Of a DNA stretch of 64,000 nucleotides, positions 50,289 through 58,666 are shown in pieces. Under the pieces are notes generated by a model. The model saw nothing but the letters and a program-made list of their open reading frames with translations. It was not told where the DNA came from and searched no databases. Numbering within the stretch: the first letter of the stretch is position 1; the number at the start of each line of letters is the position of its first letter. The DNA is from Bacteriovorax sp. MedPE-SWde (GTDB lineage: Bacteria; Bdellovibrionota; Bacteriovoracia; Bacteriovoracales; Bacteriovoracaceae), in contig MPCU01000005.1 in NCBI GenBank assembly GCA_001874305.1, forward strand, positions 186,001 through 250,000, read 5' to 3'. The position numbers and the translations under genes are program-made.

Positions 50289-52205
50289 ATGGAAGAAATA
50301 GAAAAGAAGAGAATTAAAATAGCCTTTTGTATATTCGCAGTCGCATTTACTGCAATATTCTTCAAGGCCTTTAAAGTTCAAGTCATTGATAAACAAGCTC
50401 TACTTACTAGAGCGAAAAGACAATTCTTTAGAGAAAGAAAGGTCTTTCCACGTCGTGGTCATATTTACGATAGAAGTGGAAATCCTCTAGCTATCAATAT
50501 CAGAACTTACAGTATCTTTGTTATTCCTAAAAATATTGAAGACAAGGGAGCTTTTAAAAAGCTCGCTAAAGCAATTCCTCATTTAACTTTAGATAAAATA
50601 AAAAGAAGAATGAAGAATAGGAAGCGCTTTACCTGGGTCGCAAGAAAAGTTGAACTTACAACTGAACAGCTAGAATCTATTAAAAAAATTAAGGGGATTT
50701 ACACGGAAGTAATTCCTAAAAGACTTTATCCGAACCATGAACTTGCATCACAAACTCTAGGTTTTGTAGGACTTGATAATAATGGTCTATCTGGAATAGA
50801 GCATAGATTTGATAAAGAATTGAGAGGGGAACCTCAAATTATAAAGTACCTTATTGATAATAAGGGAAGACCTGTTCGCTACGTTAGTCAAAACAATGGA
50901 GATAGATCTCTTGACCTCCATTTAAGTATTGATAAGGAAGTACAAGCAGTTGCAGAAAAAGCACTTAAAGAAGCAGTTGAAGGTGTTGATGCCTTTAGAG
51001 GTGGAGTTGGTGTAATGAATGCTGAAACTGGGGAAGTCATTGCGATTGCAAACTACCCTTCTTTTGATCCAAACGATTTAAGTAGCTCGAAGAATACTCA
51101 TCGAAAGCTCTCGTTTGTAAGTGATCCTTTTGAGCCAGGATCGACGTTTAAAGTTTTAACCGTAGCTTCTGCATTAGAAAATAAAATAGTACGACCAGAA
51201 ACAAATTACTACTGTGAACAAGGTCGATTAAAAGTAGAAGACCATATAATATCGGAAGCAGAATCTAGAAAGAAATTTGAATGGCTATCTGTTACAGATA
51301 TTATTAAATATAGTTCTAATGTTGGAACAACAAAAATTGCATTTGATTTAACCTTTCCAAAACTTAAAAATACTCTTGATAAGTTTAAAGTTGGTCATAA
51401 GACAGGGATTGAAATACCTGCTGAGTCCAGAGGTATTTTTACAAGTGATAAGAATGTTTCACCTCTTTCTTTAAGTAATATTAGTTTTGGTCAGGGAGTT
51501 GCAACCACTGGTATTCAGATGCTCGCAGCGTATGCAGCTATTGCGAATGGTGGTAATTACGTTAAGCCGACAATCCTAAAAGTTAAAGATAGAAAAAAGG
51601 TTGAAAAAACGAGAATCATGTCTGAACAAACAGCTAAAGAGTTAACAGACATGATGTTACAAACTGTTGAAAGTGGTACAGGATCGAAAGGAAAAATTAG
51701 ATATTTTAAAATTGCAGCGAAGACAAGTACAGCGCAAAGATCAGATGGAACAGGTCGATACAGTGGTTATGTTCCTGGATTCCTAGGATTCCCTGTAGAT
51801 GTGGACAGTAAGTTTGTTGTATATTCATATATTGATAATCCAGCACCAGGGAAACCGTATTACGGAAATCTCGTTGCAGGGCCAGTCTTTAGAAAAGTAA
51901 CTGAGTTCTTATTATTTAAAAATAAAGAGTTTCAAAAACTTGCGGATGATAAGTCCTATAAGAATGAAGATGCGTTTGACTCTGTTAAATTAAAGCAATC
52001 ATCTAAGCGAAATACTGGATCAGGAAATGTTCCAAATTTTATAGGATTGGATAAGAAATCTGCTTCAAAACTAGCTGAAAAAATGGGTGTTGATTTAAGT
52101 CATTCTGGTATTGGCGTTGTTAAATCTCAGTCATTAGATGCAGGGACTGTTTTATCAAAAGATGCCACTGTTAGGTTGAAATACGCACCTCCTACTTATG
52201 AATAA
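50289..52205 (+). CDS. ftsI: Septal peptidoglycan transpeptidase (PBP3) with PASTA domain
   Basis: 638 residues. An N-terminal anchor helix (about 9-28), the pedestal domain starting RGHIYDRSGNPLAI, and the transpeptidase domain with catalytic Ser285 in GSTFK, the SSN box in YSSNVGT and KTST near residue 479. One PASTA repeat closes the protein (about 575-638, VPNFIGLDKKSASKLAEKMG). A PASTA end is absent from E. coli FtsI but common in Gram-positives and in delta/bdello groups. It overlaps murE by 8 bases. Confidence 0.95.
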   Translation: MEEIEKKRIKIAFCIFAVAFTAIFFKAFKVQVIDKQALLTRAKRQFFRERKVFPRRGHIYDRSGNPLAINIRTYSIFVIPKNIEDKGAFKKLAKAIPHLTLDKIKRRMKNRKRFTWVARKVELTTEQLESIKKIKGIYTEVIPKRLYPNHELASQTLGFVGLDNNGLSGIEHRFDKELRGEPQIIKYLIDNKGRPVRYVSQNNGDRSLDLHLSIDKEVQAVAEKALKEAVEGVDAFRGGVGVMNAETGEVIAIANYPSFDPNDLSSSKNTHRKLSFVSDPFEPGSTFKVLTVASALENKIVRPETNYYCEQGRLKVEDHIISEAESRKKFEWLSVTDIIKYSSNVGTTKIAFDLTFPKLKNTLDKFKVGHKTGIEIPAESRGIFTSDKNVSPLSLSNISFGQGVATTGIQMLAAYAAIANGGNYVKPTILKVKDRKKVEKTRIMSEQTAKELTDMMLQTVESGTGSKGKIRYFKIAAKTSTAQRSDGTGRYSGYVPGFLGFPVDVDSKFVVYSYIDNPAPGKPYYGNLVAGPVFRKVTEFLLFKNKEFQKLADDKSYKNEDAFDSVKLKQSSKRNTGSGNVPNFIGLDKKSASKLAEKMGVDLSHSGIGVVKSQSLDAGTVLSKDATVRLKYAPPTYE

Positions 52206-53568
52206 AATATTTTCTAAATTTGGAATTGATGTACCTCTAGATAACTTCGACAATTTGGTTGAAGTTACGACTAATCTTCAAGATGGTACTTTAAAACATA
52301 TAGTCTTCTATAGATTAAACAATACAGATATATCTCAGAATCTATTTAGAAGTAGAATTGAGAATAAAGAGATTGGACTTCTCATTTTAAATTGTGAACC
52401 CAGTAGTAAAATAAATATTCCATATGTTGTAATTAACTATGATGATTTCTTTAATCTTCAAAAAGAAATCTGTAATCAACTCTACCCAAAAAGTTTTGAT
52501 GTAAAATTAATCGGTATAACTGGGACCAACGGTAAGTCTACTGTGGTTCATCTTTGCCATGAAATTTTAAATAAGAGTGGGCATAAGGCATTTACGGTTG
52601 GGACGATTGGAATTTGTGAAGGGGAGAAAGAGATTCTTCCTGCTCCTGGAGCTACAACACCATCCTATGTAGACCTCAGAAGAATACTCCATAAACTATC
52701 AAGTTATGAATATGCCTGTATTGAGGTAAGTAGTCATGCCTTAGATCAAGCAAGGTTAAATGGTTTTGAGCTAGAAGTTTCTGGTTTTACAAATCTATCT
52801 CAAGATCACTTGGACTACCATGGAACTATGGATAAATATCTCAAAGCTAAGTTACTAATAGGTGATTTGTCTAAGAAGCCATTAATAGTTCCCCATGATG
52901 AAGATGATCTTGTAAGCATGCTAACAGAAAATAATGTTGATTTTGAAATAGCTAAGAAAGCTTCTGTTAAATCAGTAAATGATAGCTTCTCTCTTTCATA
53001 TAATGAAAAGAATCTGTCTCTAGCAAGTTTACTCGCTAATAGGGCGACGAATTCAGTGTTAGAAATTCCTAAAGATATCTCTCTTCCTAAGGGACGATAT
53101 AATAGTTTTAGATATAATAAATCTCTTTATGTTGTTGATTATGCACATACGCCAGATGCACTCTCAAATGTGGTTAGCGAGACAAGAAGAGCATTTCCTA
53201 AGAGTCATATAATTACTATCTTTGGATGTGGTGGTGACAGAGATAGACTAAAGAGGCCGAGAATGCTTGAAGCAATTCTTGAAATTAGTGATGAGATCGT
53301 TGTGACAACAGATAACCCTCGTACTGAAGATCCTCAGAGTATTATTGATGATGCAGTTAAAGGAAATATTGAAAACCCTAAGGTCGAAACAATTCTTGAT
53401 AGAAAGTCGGCCATAAAGAAGTACGTGAGAGATTACAGTGATGAAACGATCGTAATTGTCGCTGGAAAAGGTCATGAAGAGTATCAAGATGTTAATGGTG
53501 TTAAACATTACTTTAGTGATATTGAGGAAATTAAGACCGTTATAAGTGAGATGAAAAGTGAAGGTTAG
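52198..53568 (+). CDS. murE: UDP-MurNAc-tripeptide synthetase (MurE)
   Basis: 456 residues, a little short because the N-terminal domain is reduced. The P-loop GITGTNGKSTVVHL, EVSSHALDQARLNG, and the amino-acid selector DNPRTEDP are present. DNPR is the signature for meso-diaminopimelate, fitting Gram-negative peptidoglycan. The start lies inside the end of ftsI without its own ribosome-binding site, so translation is probably coupled. Confidence 0.95.
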   Translation: MNKIFSKFGIDVPLDNFDNLVEVTTNLQDGTLKHIVFYRLNNTDISQNLFRSRIENKEIGLLILNCEPSSKINIPYVVINYDDFFNLQKEICNQLYPKSFDVKLIGITGTNGKSTVVHLCHEILNKSGHKAFTVGTIGICEGEKEILPAPGATTPSYVDLRRILHKLSSYEYACIEVSSHALDQARLNGFELEVSGFTNLSQDHLDYHGTMDKYLKAKLLIGDLSKKPLIVPHDEDDLVSMLTENNVDFEIAKKASVKSVNDSFSLSYNEKNLSLASLLANRATNSVLEIPKDISLPKGRYNSFRYNKSLYVVDYAHTPDALSNVVSETRRAFPKSHIITIFGCGGDRDRLKRPRMLEAILEISDEIVVTTDNPRTEDPQSIIDDAVKGNIENPKVETILDRKSAIKKYVRDYSDETIVIVAGKGHEEYQDVNGVKHYFSDIEEIKTVISEMKSEG

Positions 53569-54892
53569 TGACTTTAAAAATATCCAAGGGATTATCGAGT
53601 TCAATGGAGAATATTCAAATACAGAAATTAGTATCACGACGGACTCTCGTTCAATGACGAGTGAGAATGTTTTCCTTGCTCTTAAAGGTGAAAACTTTGA
53701 TGGGTTTGACTATATGAATCCTGCTCTTGAGAAAGGAGTTGAAGTTGTTATTTATACACATCTTCCTGAGCGAACAGAAATAGTAAAAAGTCTTAAAGAA
53801 AGATACAAGGATGTATTGTTTATAGCTGTGGGTAACACTCTAAAATATCTTCAGGATTCAGCTTCTTGGTGGATGAGAGAGTGGCAAAAAAGTAATGGTG
53901 GTATAACAATTGGCCTAACAGGCTCCAATGGTAAAACTACGACAAAAGAGTTGCTTTTTGCTCAAGCTGAAATAATTTTAAAAGATAAAGTTCTTTGCAC
54001 GGCCGGTAACTTTAATAATCACATCGGAGTACCCCTTACTGTTCTAAGAATAAAGAATAAACACAAACTCGCAATTATCGAAATGGGAACTAATCATCCT
54101 GGTGAAATAGAGGTACTTTGTAATATTGCAAATCCAAAGTTTGGTTTGATTACTAATGTCGGAGCAGCACATCTTGAGTTTTTTAAAGACGAAAGTGGAG
54201 TACTAAAAGAAAAGTCATCTTTATATGATTATATAAATAAGCATGGAGGAGAGTTTTACCTCAATATGTCTGACAATAATTTAAAAACTCTAGAAATTAC
54301 TAAGCAAGTCTATCCATTTGGAGAAGATGAGTCAGAGTTCTACCAAGAGCTTAATAATGAAAATATAGAAGAGTCGTATAATATATGGAACCTTAAAGCT
54401 TCACTATTTACTCTTTCAAAAATATATCCTGACAAAGAAGAACTACTTATAAAGAATGCGGCGACTATTAAGCTGCCTGCAAATAAGAGATCAGAATGGA
54501 TTGAAAAATCTGGAAAGAGAATCTTCTTAGATGCTTATAATGCAAATCCTACTTCAATGAAGAGCTCACTAGAATCTTTTGCTAATAAATATGGCGACGC
54601 ACAAGAAAAGTCGCTCTATGTTGTAGGTGATATGAATGAGCTTGGGGAATCATGCCAAAAATTCCACGAAGACATTTCAATACTAATGAATGATCTTAAA
54701 ATAAAGAATGCAATATTTGTTGGACGCTATGCACATTATTACGAGTCGAAATTCAATGGCAGTTCAAAAGTTTATACTAATAGAGAAGATCTTCTAAAAG
54801 ATTGGAATAAAGTATCAAATTCGTATCAATATATATTCCTGAAGGCGAGCCGCTCTTTACAACTAGAGGCATTAATAGATATAACTGACTAA
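53558..54892 (+). CDS. murF: UDP-MurNAc-tripeptide-D-Ala-D-Ala ligase (MurF)
   Basis: 444 residues; GTG start overlapping murE by 11 bases. It adds D-Ala-D-Ala to the stem peptide. An N-terminal UDP-binding domain (ITTDSRSMTSENVFLALKGE), the P-loop GLTGSNGKTTTKEL, EMGTNHPGEIEVL and the C-terminal DAYNANPTSMKSSLESF are all family hallmarks. The D-Ala-D-Ala supplier ddl is not encoded in the window. Confidence 0.95.
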   Translation: MKVSDFKNIQGIIEFNGEYSNTEISITTDSRSMTSENVFLALKGENFDGFDYMNPALEKGVEVVIYTHLPERTEIVKSLKERYKDVLFIAVGNTLKYLQDSASWWMREWQKSNGGITIGLTGSNGKTTTKELLFAQAEIILKDKVLCTAGNFNNHIGVPLTVLRIKNKHKLAIIEMGTNHPGEIEVLCNIANPKFGLITNVGAAHLEFFKDESGVLKEKSSLYDYINKHGGEFYLNMSDNNLKTLEITKQVYPFGEDESEFYQELNNENIEESYNIWNLKASLFTLSKIYPDKEELLIKNAATIKLPANKRSEWIEKSGKRIFLDAYNANPTSMKSSLESFANKYGDAQEKSLYVVGDMNELGESCQKFHEDISILMNDLKIKNAIFVGRYAHYYESKFNGSSKVYTNREDLLKDWNKVSNSYQYIFLKASRSLQLEALIDITD

Positions 54893-54917: not shown

Positions 54918-55994
54918 ATGTTATATCACTTTCTATACCCGCTGAGTGAGCAGTTCTCTTTGTTCAATATCTTTAGATATATAACATTTAGAACAGTTGT
55001 AGCTTTTCTCGTAGCGACTATTTTCTCAATTATCTGGGGAAAGTACTTCATAAAATATATGCAAAGAAAGCAATTTGGCCAAGTGGTTAGGGATGATGGT
55101 CCTCAGTCGCATTTAAAAAAGGCCGGAACACCTACAATGGGTGGGATTGTAATAATAGGAAGTATTCTTTTTACTCTTCTATTTACAGGGAACTTTGACT
55201 CAAAGCCCCTATTAACAACACTCTTTGTAATGCTCTCCTACTTCGTGTTGGGCTTTATAGATGATTACTCGAAAATAGCTAAGAAGAACACTAAAGGTGT
55301 TTCAGCTAAGGGAAAACTTCTTTGGCAGTTTGTTACTGCTGGAGCTGCGATCTATTTTCTTAAAGAATATAATGTAATTAGTACTGAGTTATATGTTCCA
55401 TTCATGAAGGGACCAATTATAAATATGTACTCTGTGTTTATCGCTTTTGGTGCATTTGTTGTTGTTGGCTCTAGTAATGCTGTCAATTTAACGGATGGGT
55501 TAGATGGTTTGGCGATAGGTCCGATCATTACATCGGCGGCTTCTCTTGGGATTATTGCCTATGCCACAGGGCATAAGGAGATAGCTTCATATTTATTTGT
55601 TCCATATATTGAAAATATCGGGGAGTTAGCTGTCCTCTGCGCTGCAATGGTAGGTGCTGGAGTAGGTTTTCTGTGGTACAACTCGTACCCAGCTCAGATT
55701 TTTATGGGTGATGTAGGCTCACTATCTCTAGGTGGAACACTTGGAATGATGGCCGTACTAACTAAGAACGAGATTCTCTTTGTTCTAATTGGTGGAATCT
55801 TTGTTGTTGAAGCGCTGTCTGTAATTATTCAAGTCGCTTCCTATAAGACGAGGAAGAAAAGAGTTTTTAAAATGGCACCTATACACCATCACTTTGAGTT
55901 ATTGGGATGGCCGGAGCCAAAAGTAATTGTAAGATTTTGGATTATTAGTATATTTTTAGCGATCCTCGCGGTTGCTACACTTAAAATGAGGTAG
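54918..55994 (+). CDS. mraY: Phospho-MurNAc-pentapeptide transferase (MraY)
   Basis: 358 residues with ten membrane helices. It makes lipid I on the cytoplasmic membrane. The Asp cluster FIDDYSKIAKKNTKGVSAK, the second motif NAVNLTDGLDGLAIG, FMGDVGSLSLGG and the His-rich PIHHHFELLGWPE are intact. No clear ribosome-binding site precedes the ATG. It lies 25 bases after murF and 4 bases before murD. Confidence 0.96.
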   Translation: MLYHFLYPLSEQFSLFNIFRYITFRTVVAFLVATIFSIIWGKYFIKYMQRKQFGQVVRDDGPQSHLKKAGTPTMGGIVIIGSILFTLLFTGNFDSKPLLTTLFVMLSYFVLGFIDDYSKIAKKNTKGVSAKGKLLWQFVTAGAAIYFLKEYNVISTELYVPFMKGPIINMYSVFIAFGAFVVVGSSNAVNLTDGLDGLAIGPIITSAASLGIIAYATGHKEIASYLFVPYIENIGELAVLCAAMVGAGVGFLWYNSYPAQIFMGDVGSLSLGGTLGMMAVLTKNEILFVLIGGIFVVEALSVIIQVASYKTRKKRVFKMAPIHHHFELLGWPEPKVIVRFWIISIFLAILAVATLKMR

Positions 55995-55998
55995 ATAA

Positions 55999-57381
55999 AT
56001 GGAGAGATTTAGAAACAAAAAAATTCTCATCGTTGGTATTGGGAAGACTGGTTTCAAACTCATCAACTTTTTTAATACGCTTGATTGTGCAATTCGCGTA
56101 ACTGATATTAAGCCGATTTTCGATCTTAATAAGCCAGTTAAAAAGCTGAAGAAAATTAAGCCGGCACCAGATATGTCATTTGGTGAACACAAAGATGAAG
56201 ATTTCTTAGAAGCAGATGTAGTTGTTTACTCTTCTGCCGTAGACCCTAACCTTCCTCAGCTAGAACTAGCTCGTAAGAATGGTAAAGAAGTTTACAGTGA
56301 ATTCGCTCTAGGTAACAAGCTATGTAGAAAGCCTATCATCGCAGTATGTGGATCTTACGGAAGATCAACTGTTGCTCATATGATTGGGTTTACAATGAAG
56401 CAAGACGGAAAAAATATTTTCGTAGGTGGAACTAGTGATAGTCCATTCATTGAATTTTCAATGCTTCCTAATAAAGACGAAATTGATTATGTAATTGTTG
56501 AGCTTTCAGCAGTTCAAATGAGACGTTTAACTGACTTCCACCCAAAGATGGTTGTCTTTACTAACATCTCTGAGAACTACCCTGCTGGTCACTTTACTTC
56601 AATGGGTGAATACATGGAGACTAAGCTGTCTATTGTTAAGACTCTTTCTCCAGACGACATTCTTATTTGTAACTTTGATAAGCTTGCAAATAACACTTTC
56701 TTTAGAAATGCTAACTGCCAGACTTACTGGTACTCAAGAAGATCATTCGTAAAACTTGGTGTTATGGATGAAATTCAAGGAACACATTTCCACGATAGAA
56801 GAATCCACTCAAATATTAGCTGTCACTCTGAGTTCTCAGTTAAGAAAATGAGAATCATTGGTCAAAATAATAGAGAAAACCTTCTTGCTGCAACAACTGC
56901 TTGTAAAGCTCTTGATGCATCAGATGAAGCTATCCAGACTTGTGTTGAAAGATTCCCTGGAATCCCTCACCGCCTAGAATTCCTAATGGAGAAGAACGGA
57001 GTTTCTTTCTATAACGATTCTAAAGCTGAGACGATGGATAACCTTGTTGAAAGTATTAAGTCTTTCAAAGGGCCAGTAATTTTAATTGCTGGTGGTAAAG
57101 ATAACGAAGAATTTGATTTCGAACCATACTCTGAGAAGCTAATTGATAACACTAGAGTTATTGTACTAGTTGGTGAGTGTAAGGAAAGAATGAACAGAGC
57201 ACTAGGTGAGCACAATCAAACGTTCATCGTTGGTTCATTTGAAGAGTCAGTACTATTCGCTTATCAAAAATCAAGAACTGGAGATACTATTTTACTTTCT
57301 CCAGGGAACTCTGCTTCTGACTTCTTCCGTGACTATGAAGAAAGAGGAAACTACTTTAAAAAACTTGTTTATCAATTATAA
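55999..57381 (+). CDS. murD: MurD-type ligase with altered P-loop (UDP-MurNAc-L-Ala:D-Glu ligase position)
   Basis: 460 residues; GAGG upstream. The N-terminal UDP-binding domain (ILIVGIGKTGFKLINFF), the carbamylated-Lys equivalent Lys209 (EYMETKLSI), PHRLEF (323-328), NDSKA (339-343, Lys342) and the C-terminal LLSPGNSASDFFRDYEERG establish a MurD homologue at the right place in the cluster. Yet the P-loop reads CGSYGRSTVAHM: Arg122 replaces the invariant Lys of GxxGK(S/T). ELSSFQ is ELSAVQ, the DHxDRH stretch reads ENYPAGHF, and DSKATN is DSKAETMDN. Either the mechanism tolerates this in the lineage or D-Glu addition has moved elsewhere. Confidence 0.85.
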   Translation: MERFRNKKILIVGIGKTGFKLINFFNTLDCAIRVTDIKPIFDLNKPVKKLKKIKPAPDMSFGEHKDEDFLEADVVVYSSAVDPNLPQLELARKNGKEVYSEFALGNKLCRKPIIAVCGSYGRSTVAHMIGFTMKQDGKNIFVGGTSDSPFIEFSMLPNKDEIDYVIVELSAVQMRRLTDFHPKMVVFTNISENYPAGHFTSMGEYMETKLSIVKTLSPDDILICNFDKLANNTFFRNANCQTYWYSRRSFVKLGVMDEIQGTHFHDRRIHSNISCHSEFSVKKMRIIGQNNRENLLAATTACKALDASDEAIQTCVERFPGIPHRLEFLMEKNGVSFYNDSKAETMDNLVESIKSFKGPVILIAGGKDNEEFDFEPYSEKLIDNTRVIVLVGECKERMNRALGEHNQTFIVGSFEESVLFAYQKSRTGDTILLSPGNSASDFFRDYEERGNYFKKLVYQL

Positions 57382-57448: not shown

Positions 57449-58639
57449 ATGGTTGTCAGGGAAGAACTACTAGAAAAATTTGGAAATTACTTAAAACTCG
57501 TTTTAGGGATACTTGTTGGTGTTGGAATCATCATGGTTTACTCTGCGAGTTATATGTATTCAAAAGAGCAGTTTGGATCTTCTCTATACTTTCTTTGGAG
57601 ACAGCTCTTCTTTGCAGTAGTTGCTACAGGTGGCGCTATTGTCATTGCAAAAACAAAGTACCAGTTCTGGTATAAATATAGCTTTCATTTAAACTTACTA
57701 GTCGCTTTTGGAATTATCTTAACCTTTGTTCCTGGTTTAGGTGTCGTTGCCAAAGGTGCAAACAGATGGATTTCACTTGGAGGGTTCTCCCTTCAGCCTG
57801 GAGAGTTTGCAAAATACTCAACACTACTCCTGTCTGTATTTATATTTGAGAACTTCGACAGAATGGATCAGAAAGAAAAGATTAAGTATGTCGCAAACCT
57901 AGGTTTTCCATTGATCCTGCTACTTGGTCAGCCTGACTTTGGAACATTCTTTATTTGTAGCTTAGTTATCTTCTTTTCGTGTTTTCTAAGTAACTTTCCT
58001 AGAAAAATATTCTACTCAATGACTGCGATTGGCTTTGTCAGCGGTGTGATTATATTGATTTCACAACCTTATAGAGTAAGAAGGCTTACAGCATTTTTAG
58101 ACCCTTGGAAGAATGCTCAAGGAAGTGGCTTCCAGGTTATTCAGTCATGGATTGGATTTGCTAACGGTGGCTTCTTTGGAAAAGGTGCCGGAAATAGTAT
58201 GGAGAAACTATTCTTCTTACCTGAAGCGCATAACGACTTTATATTCTCAGTTATTGGAGAAGAGTTTGGCCTAATCGGTGTAATATTTATGATAGGGCTC
58301 TTTGTGTCTTTTATCTATATAGGCTTTAGGCTTTCACTACTTATGAAGGACAGAGTCGCAATGATGATGACTGCCCTAGTAACATTTGTAATTGGCCTTC
58401 AAGCTGCTCTGAATATGGGTGTTGTTCTTGGCCTATTACCGACTAAGGGATTAAACTTACCTTTCATTAGCTACGGTGGATCTTCCCTAATGGCGAGTCT
58501 CTGTGCAATAGGTTTAATCTTCTCATGCGTAAAGAGACAGAAGGAAGTGTTGGGCACAGCGTCTATAAATAGTGTAGATCCTATTTTCTCTCGAGCGAAT
58601 GAGACATCACAATTCAAAAGTGATACAAATAACATCTAA
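57449..58639 (+). CDS. ftsW: Septal peptidoglycan glycosyltransferase (FtsW)
   Basis: 396 residues, a SEDS-family protein with about ten membrane helices. It polymerises lipid II at the septum together with FtsI. Conserved stretches include GANRWISLGGFSLQPGEFAK, QPDFGTFFI, the loop QSWIGFANGGFFGKGAGNSM with PEAHNDFIFSVIGEEFGLIG, and LPTKGLNLPFISYGGSSL. Placement next to mur genes favours FtsW over RodA. murG, which usually follows, is missing. Confidence 0.94.
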   Translation: MVVREELLEKFGNYLKLVLGILVGVGIIMVYSASYMYSKEQFGSSLYFLWRQLFFAVVATGGAIVIAKTKYQFWYKYSFHLNLLVAFGIILTFVPGLGVVAKGANRWISLGGFSLQPGEFAKYSTLLLSVFIFENFDRMDQKEKIKYVANLGFPLILLLGQPDFGTFFICSLVIFFSCFLSNFPRKIFYSMTAIGFVSGVIILISQPYRVRRLTAFLDPWKNAQGSGFQVIQSWIGFANGGFFGKGAGNSMEKLFFLPEAHNDFIFSVIGEEFGLIGVIFMIGLFVSFIYIGFRLSLLMKDRVAMMMTALVTFVIGLQAALNMGVVLGLLPTKGLNLPFISYGGSSLMASLCAIGLIFSCVKRQKEVLGTASINSVDPIFSRANETSQFKSDTNNI

Positions 58640-58666
58640 GTAAAAATTGATATTAAGGAAATTATC

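Follow-up and report, generated by a model that had tools for sequence, protein, structure and literature searches.

A MurD with altered catalytic residues, conserved in the dcw cluster of Bacteriovoracia alongside an intact second MurD

Replacing the P-loop Lys normally leaves an enzyme unable to use ATP, and the MurD encoded in the dcw cluster of Bacteriovorax sp. MedPE-SWde carries Arg at this position, which raises the question of how D-Glu is added to the peptidoglycan precursor in this bacterium and what such a protein is kept for. The locus lies in a window of 64,000 nucleotides (the whole stretch of DNA that was analysed), on contig 11 of a 3.76 Mb genome that is 99.7% complete. A previous sequence-only reading of the window had suggested a changed mechanism, a different substrate or a D-Glu-adding activity moved elsewhere. 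Our results confirm the underlying observation and partly support that interpretation, a moved activity being most likely; we consider it likely that the dcw MurD is a pseudoenzyme kept for a non-catalytic job, with catalysis taken over by a second MurD.

The dcw MurD encoded in the window is referred to here as MurD1, and residues are numbered as in E. coli MurD minus its first Met, unless stated otherwise (Table 1). MurD1 scores 278 bits against NCBIfam TIGR01087 (murD; cutoff, 212), as a full-length MurD, and its best Foldseek matches are MurD structures (E about 1e-26, TM 0.5-0.6); the AlphaFold model (24 rows), with a pLDDT of 74.7 and low-confidence stretches at 249-290 and 442-451, suits fold assignment, not active-site geometry. 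MurD1 resembles the MurD of E. coli (1UAG and 2JFF, among other structures) in fold, full length, cluster position and a family score above the cutoff, but differs from it in the absence of the P-loop Lys, N138, H183 and the D-Glu contacts T321 and K348. Its P-loop region reads AVCGSYGRST, placing an Arg encoded by AGA at the K115 position, as had been noticed, and the other motif changes then pointed out are likewise present in the open reading frame (DH-x-DR to NYPAGH, SSFQ to SAVQ and SKATN to SKAET). The K198 equivalent and the PHR motif, described as kept, are indeed intact in MurD1, but K198 is gone in 27 of 107 family rows. The C-terminal domain had also been considered preserved, which applies to its fold but not to its D-Glu contacts (T321E, K348N and S415A), the three residues described as contacted by D-Glu-site ligands (PMC3527612).

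Table 1. Coordinates of the features discussed. Positions without prefix refer to the window; G000, window genome; C, contig.
Feature	Position	Strand	Basis or score
murD1, dcw MurD, catalytically degenerate (putative), 460 aa	55999..57381	+	ORF; TIGR01087; residue table
murD1 P-loop codons GSYGRST, residues 118-124	56350..56370	+	computed from ORF start
murD1 Arg122 codon AGA	56362-56364	+	computed from ORF start
murD1 Thr145 replacing E. coli N138	56431..56433	+	residue comparison
murD1 Tyr194 replacing E. coli H183 (metal/substrate His)	56578..56580	+	residue comparison
murD1 Lys209, carbamylated Lys (E. coli K198), present	56623..56625	+	family rows
murD1 Glu344 replacing D-Glu-binding T321	57028..57030	+	residue comparison
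mraY, immediately 5' of murD1	54918..55994	+	ORF; named loci
ftsW, 3' of murD1	57449..58639	+	ORF; named loci
Second MurD, 452 aa	G000:C8:127515-128819	-	search of same genome
MurI-like protein, window genome	G000:C2:176936-177661		145.2 bits, just under cutoff 146.65
Mpl-like murein peptide ligase	L006:1072-2538 (G000 contig C15)		277 bits, below NCBIfam cutoff 388.7

The replacement is a trait of the whole class, which in the searched collection comprises the same 129 genomes as the window's own family (f1, within the family codes f1-f28). Named relatives of MurD1 belong to Bacteriovorax, Halobacteriovorax and unclassified Bacteriovoracaceae, the nearest being that of Bacteriovorax sp. DB6_IX (94%). 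In a family alignment of 107 rows (106 loci and the window), Arg occupies the K115 position in 106/106 rows having a letter there, and in 86/86 distinct dcw MurDs of Bacteriovoracia having that position, where it is encoded by all six Arg codons (AGA, CGT, CGC, CGA, AGG and CGG). This rules out both a sequencing error and a single-strain oddity, and points to selection for Arg, rather than error or drift. Further, H183 is kept in 0/107 rows, N138 is replaced by Thr in 104/107 (84/87 distinct sequences) and T321 by Glu in 99/107 (79/87 distinct sequences), while the carbamylated K198, whose mutation in E. coli MurD is described as strongly reducing activity (PMC4816537), is present in 80/107 rows and missing in the remainder. 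Residues E157, N268, N271, R302, D317 and K319 are intact in at least 96% of the 107 rows. When compared with the 81 columns conserved in single-MurD rows, MurD1 keeps 46, varies at 28 and has switched to another fixed residue at 7, K115R and T321E among these; 56 further columns are invariant in 19 rows of f1 and not so in single-MurD rows. Taken together, these losses suggest that MurD1 is catalytically dead. Its D35, S159 and Q162, which we take to be contacts of the UDP-MurNAc site, are intact, and because of this MurD1 could possibly bind ligand without turnover.

MurD1 had been noted as the only MurD of the cluster, which is right, but a search of the genome retrieved a second, canonical murD (Table 1), a result that the earlier reading had itself named as one that would refute it. 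Its product scores 290.8 bits against TIGR01087, displays 23-27% identity to MurD1 over two stretches, and contains GTNGKTT, N138, E157, H183, K198, R302, D317 and K319. In 65/65 family sequences of this second MurD (five further rows of the 70-row alignment, from other families, are excluded from the count), K115, N138, E157, H183, R186, Y194, K198, R302, D317, K319, T321 and S415 are invariant; because these 12 checked residues are intact throughout, D-Glu addition has probably moved to the second MurD, which would be the active ligase. Consequently, an Arg-based ATP mechanism becomes unnecessary, and the moved activity is the one of the three earlier suggestions that fits best. The second murD sits outside any wall cluster, since its neighbours include a serC-like gene, a weakly methyltransferase-like gene and, by translation, a tgt-like gene and DEAD-box helicases.

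At least two murD matches were found in 70 of 73 good-quality family genomes (E 1e-30 or better; matches not individually checked), and both proteins were extracted from 41 relatives. Among the three genomes that fall short, G066 carries the second MurD as a fragment, and G026 and G109 show MurD1 alone, which counts against a moved activity; nevertheless, assembly gaps are the likely cause in these two, as their assemblies consist of 220 and 310 contigs. Conversely, genomes G191, G142, G112 and G016 were initially taken as cases where the second MurD alone suffices, an argument that was dropped because no MraY match occurs there either, so that the cluster stretch is probably missing from their data. 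The existence of the second murD does not make the finding ordinary: the dead-looking copy is strongly selected across the class, and the pattern recurs in the phylum.

Regarding selection, median pairwise identities, sampled from at most 16 loci of the family, were 76% for MurD1, 75% for FtsA, 69% for MraY, 55% for FtsI, 52% for MurC and FtsW, 45% for MurB, 39% for MurF and 38% for MurE, MurD1 being the highest of the nine cluster proteins measured. As a separate observation, MurE and MurF (window 52198-54892) are unusually divergent within the family when compared with MraY, MurC and MurD1. Across the 41 paired genomes, identity to the copy of the window genome was 60-94% for MurD1 and 32-66% for the second MurD. 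Against its nearest relative, MurD1 shows a dN of 0.041 at a dS of 1.0, and the dN values of MraY, MurC, MurE, MurF and the second MurD are 0.065, 0.073, 0.32, 0.29 and 0.29, with dS near or past saturation for most genes in this comparison. We had considered high conservation to be unique to the dead copy, and abandoned this idea after a control in single-MurD families, whose dcw MurD is also conserved (70% in f8, 77% in f3 and 71% in f11); a fair statement is that the constraint on the dcw MurD was not relaxed by the loss of catalytic residues. MurD1 combines lost catalytic residues with strong purifying selection on the protein, a combination expected of a pseudoenzyme. The cluster position is preserved as well, with mraY directly 5' of murD1 in 44/44 named loci having a MraY match, and ftsW within 400 bases 3' in 40/45 named loci.

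The pattern extends beyond this class. Eight catalytic residues were scored in the dcw MurD of 29 two-MurD genomes (19 from f1, 3 of 15 f6 genomes read, and all those read from f7, f14, f23, f24 and f27) and 29 single-MurD genomes (one row, L314, being cut at the C-terminus). One or more of the eight residues are missing from the dcw copy in 29/29 two-MurD genomes, and all eight are in place in 29/29 single-MurD genomes. On the best tree each trait changes six times, concordantly; restricting the count to well-supported branches leaves four independent pairs, every one concordant, which alone are too few for significance (sign test, p 0.125). The losses differ among families: K115R, N138 to T or S (one row keeps N) and loss of H183 in f1; E157V with loss of K198 and K319 in f7; N138A and K198Q in f14; N138D, K319R and loss of H183 and K198 in f23 and f24. 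The dcw MurDs of f6 (N138A/S) and f27 (N138S) may still be active, since N138 is the only one of the eight residues lost there. N138 is gone in all 15 f6 genomes examined; family f6 includes a single-contig genome of 3,782,950 bases. Family f27 was at first picked as single-MurD and proved to have two MurDs with a damaged dcw-type copy in the cluster, the outcome that the two-MurD rule would have predicted. In a MurD tree obtained by a quick method and with several long branches, a single clade (support 87) contains all dcw MurDs except those of f9, the second MurDs of f1 form a separate one (support 100), and those of f6, f7, f23 and f24 another (support 100); this tree gives no support to the second MurD being a recent copy of the dcw gene. 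Family f9 was left out of the two-versus-single comparison for lying outside the dcw clade: its single, divergent, intact MurD (L171-L173), encoded just 3' of MraY, joins those second MurDs that belong to f6/f7/f23/f24 (support 86) and not the dcw type, and is perhaps an in-place replacement.

A pseudoenzyme with a retained job is our preferred explanation because several parts of the ATP/metal centre are disrupted, strong selection acts on the fold and on many other residues, and an intact MurD is present. According to this proposal, D-Glu-ligase activity would pass from the dcw MurD to the catalytically complete second MurD encoded elsewhere, and the dcw copy would be retained through a second, non-catalytic MurD function, most likely as a subunit that tethers cytoplasmic Mur ligases to MraY/FtsW and that may also bind a UDP-MurNAc precursor without turnover. 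Such a role would probably lie in Mur/MraY/FtsW assembly; a structural subunit is favoured because the mraY-ftsW position is kept and published Mur complexes include MurD. In Thermotoga maritima, a complex of Mur enzymes including an active MurD is described, with MurG as the proposed scaffold (PMC6420597). A physical complex of cytoplasmic Mur enzymes like that one is proposed for MurD1, but, unlike it, Bacteriovoracia display no MurG-like motif between ftsW and murC in 44/45 named loci. The same motif search found no murG in that interval of the window (58640-58666); a GGGTGGH-type MurG is present there in f6, f8, f11 and f27 relatives, and L096, a deep-branching family member, retains it. 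A literature search of open-licence papers for a second or inactive bacterial MurD, or a MurD pseudoenzyme, found no report among the matches listed, and 'murD' is absent from the main text of a Bdellovibrio Tn-seq paper (PMC6561027).

A broader version, which we advance tentatively as slightly short of an even bet, is that the dcw MurD of Bdellovibrionota has a non-catalytic function important enough to keep it in place, as a structural or sensing component of the wall-synthesis complex, on every occasion when catalysis passed to a second MurD and its own catalytic residues were lost, the cases being Bacteriovoracia, f6 with or without f14, f7, f23/f24 and f27. If true, nature would have run the same separation-of-function experiment between four and six times. 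It is hard to test whether Mur ligases operate as a physical complex linked to the divisome and elongasome, beyond acting as sequential enzymes, as the chemistry of every one of them is essential; here, the chemistry and any structural role of MurD appear to be split between two genes, such that manipulation of murD1 could read the structural role alone, and that of the second murD catalysis alone. There is also a warning for annotation: in these genomes the protein called MurD from cluster position and TIGR01087 probably does not act as the ligase, in which case screening inhibitors against it would be misdirected. Why an apparently dead MurD is the best conserved of the measured cluster proteins remains the main puzzle.

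The main alternative to a structural subunit, which we regard as rather unlikely, is that MurD1 acts as a regulatory partner of the second MurD, by heterodimer formation or allosteric tuning, in the manner of pseudokinases. The two murD genes do co-occur in the family, and where a second MurD is present the dcw copy has lost catalytic residues; nonetheless, the second MurD evolves much faster than MurD1 in the same 41 genomes, and the second MurDs of different families belong to different clades, both of which speak against such a partnership. The pseudokinase Fam20A is described as activating Fam20C (PMC5413348), and MurD1 is comparable to it as a conserved enzyme relative without catalytic residues that co-occurs with an intact paralogue, although it differs in fold and pathway, and a regulatory role of MurD1 is only a candidate.

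That MurD1 is still a ligase, either through a changed mechanism in which Arg stands in for the P-loop Lys or on a different substrate, is improbable. In its favour, E157, R302, D317 and K319 are kept, as is K198 in most rows, and several of the changed residues are fixed rather than random; against this, MurD1 has also lost H183, N138 and most of its D-Glu contacts, a quarter of the rows lack K198, and an intact MurD exists in the genome.

Similarly improbable is a change of pathway, in which the second MurD would ligate L-Glu, like Xanthomonas MurD2, and a MurL epimerase would act next, MurD1 being dead in this case too. The Glu-site residues of Xanthomonas MurD2 are given as Glu, Arg, Pro and Phe at 182, 348, 414 and 416, in E. 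coli numbering (PMC8788868). The second MurD resembles it as a MurD outside the usual type, matching three of the four positions (Arg in 65/65, Pro in 64/65 and Phe in 64/65), and glutamate racemase (TIGR00067) had no match at E 1e-20 in 12/57 family genomes, some of them nearly complete. However, the fourth position, 182, is Asn, Ser or Thr in 65/65, so that the four-residue MurD2 signature is incomplete; the same source indicates that specificity is not determined by the Pro and Phe, and that Streptococcus mutans MurD also has the Arg (PMC8788868). Furthermore, a MurI-like protein just under the family cutoff is encoded in the window genome (Table 1), and none of four neighbours of the second MurD matches a MurL-like family. 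Given this mixed Glu site together with the MurI-like protein, the second MurD may be specific for either D-Glu or L-Glu. The passages of PMC8788868 on Xanthomonas MurD2/MurL describe no dead dcw MurD. The Mpl-like protein of the window genome suggests peptidoglycan recycling.

Finally, MurD1 might be a relic that persists only because removing it would interfere with how its neighbours are transcribed or translated. Its location in a tight cluster, flanked by mraY and ftsW, would allow this, but the reading is scarcely credible, given that the 76% median identity and the low dN point to a selected protein sequence and not a mere open frame. At the nucleotide level, fourfold-site identity of murD1 is somewhat higher than that of most neighbours and about that of ftsA in most of ten loci; this low synonymous divergence is more simply explained by codon bias or expression than by an RNA element.
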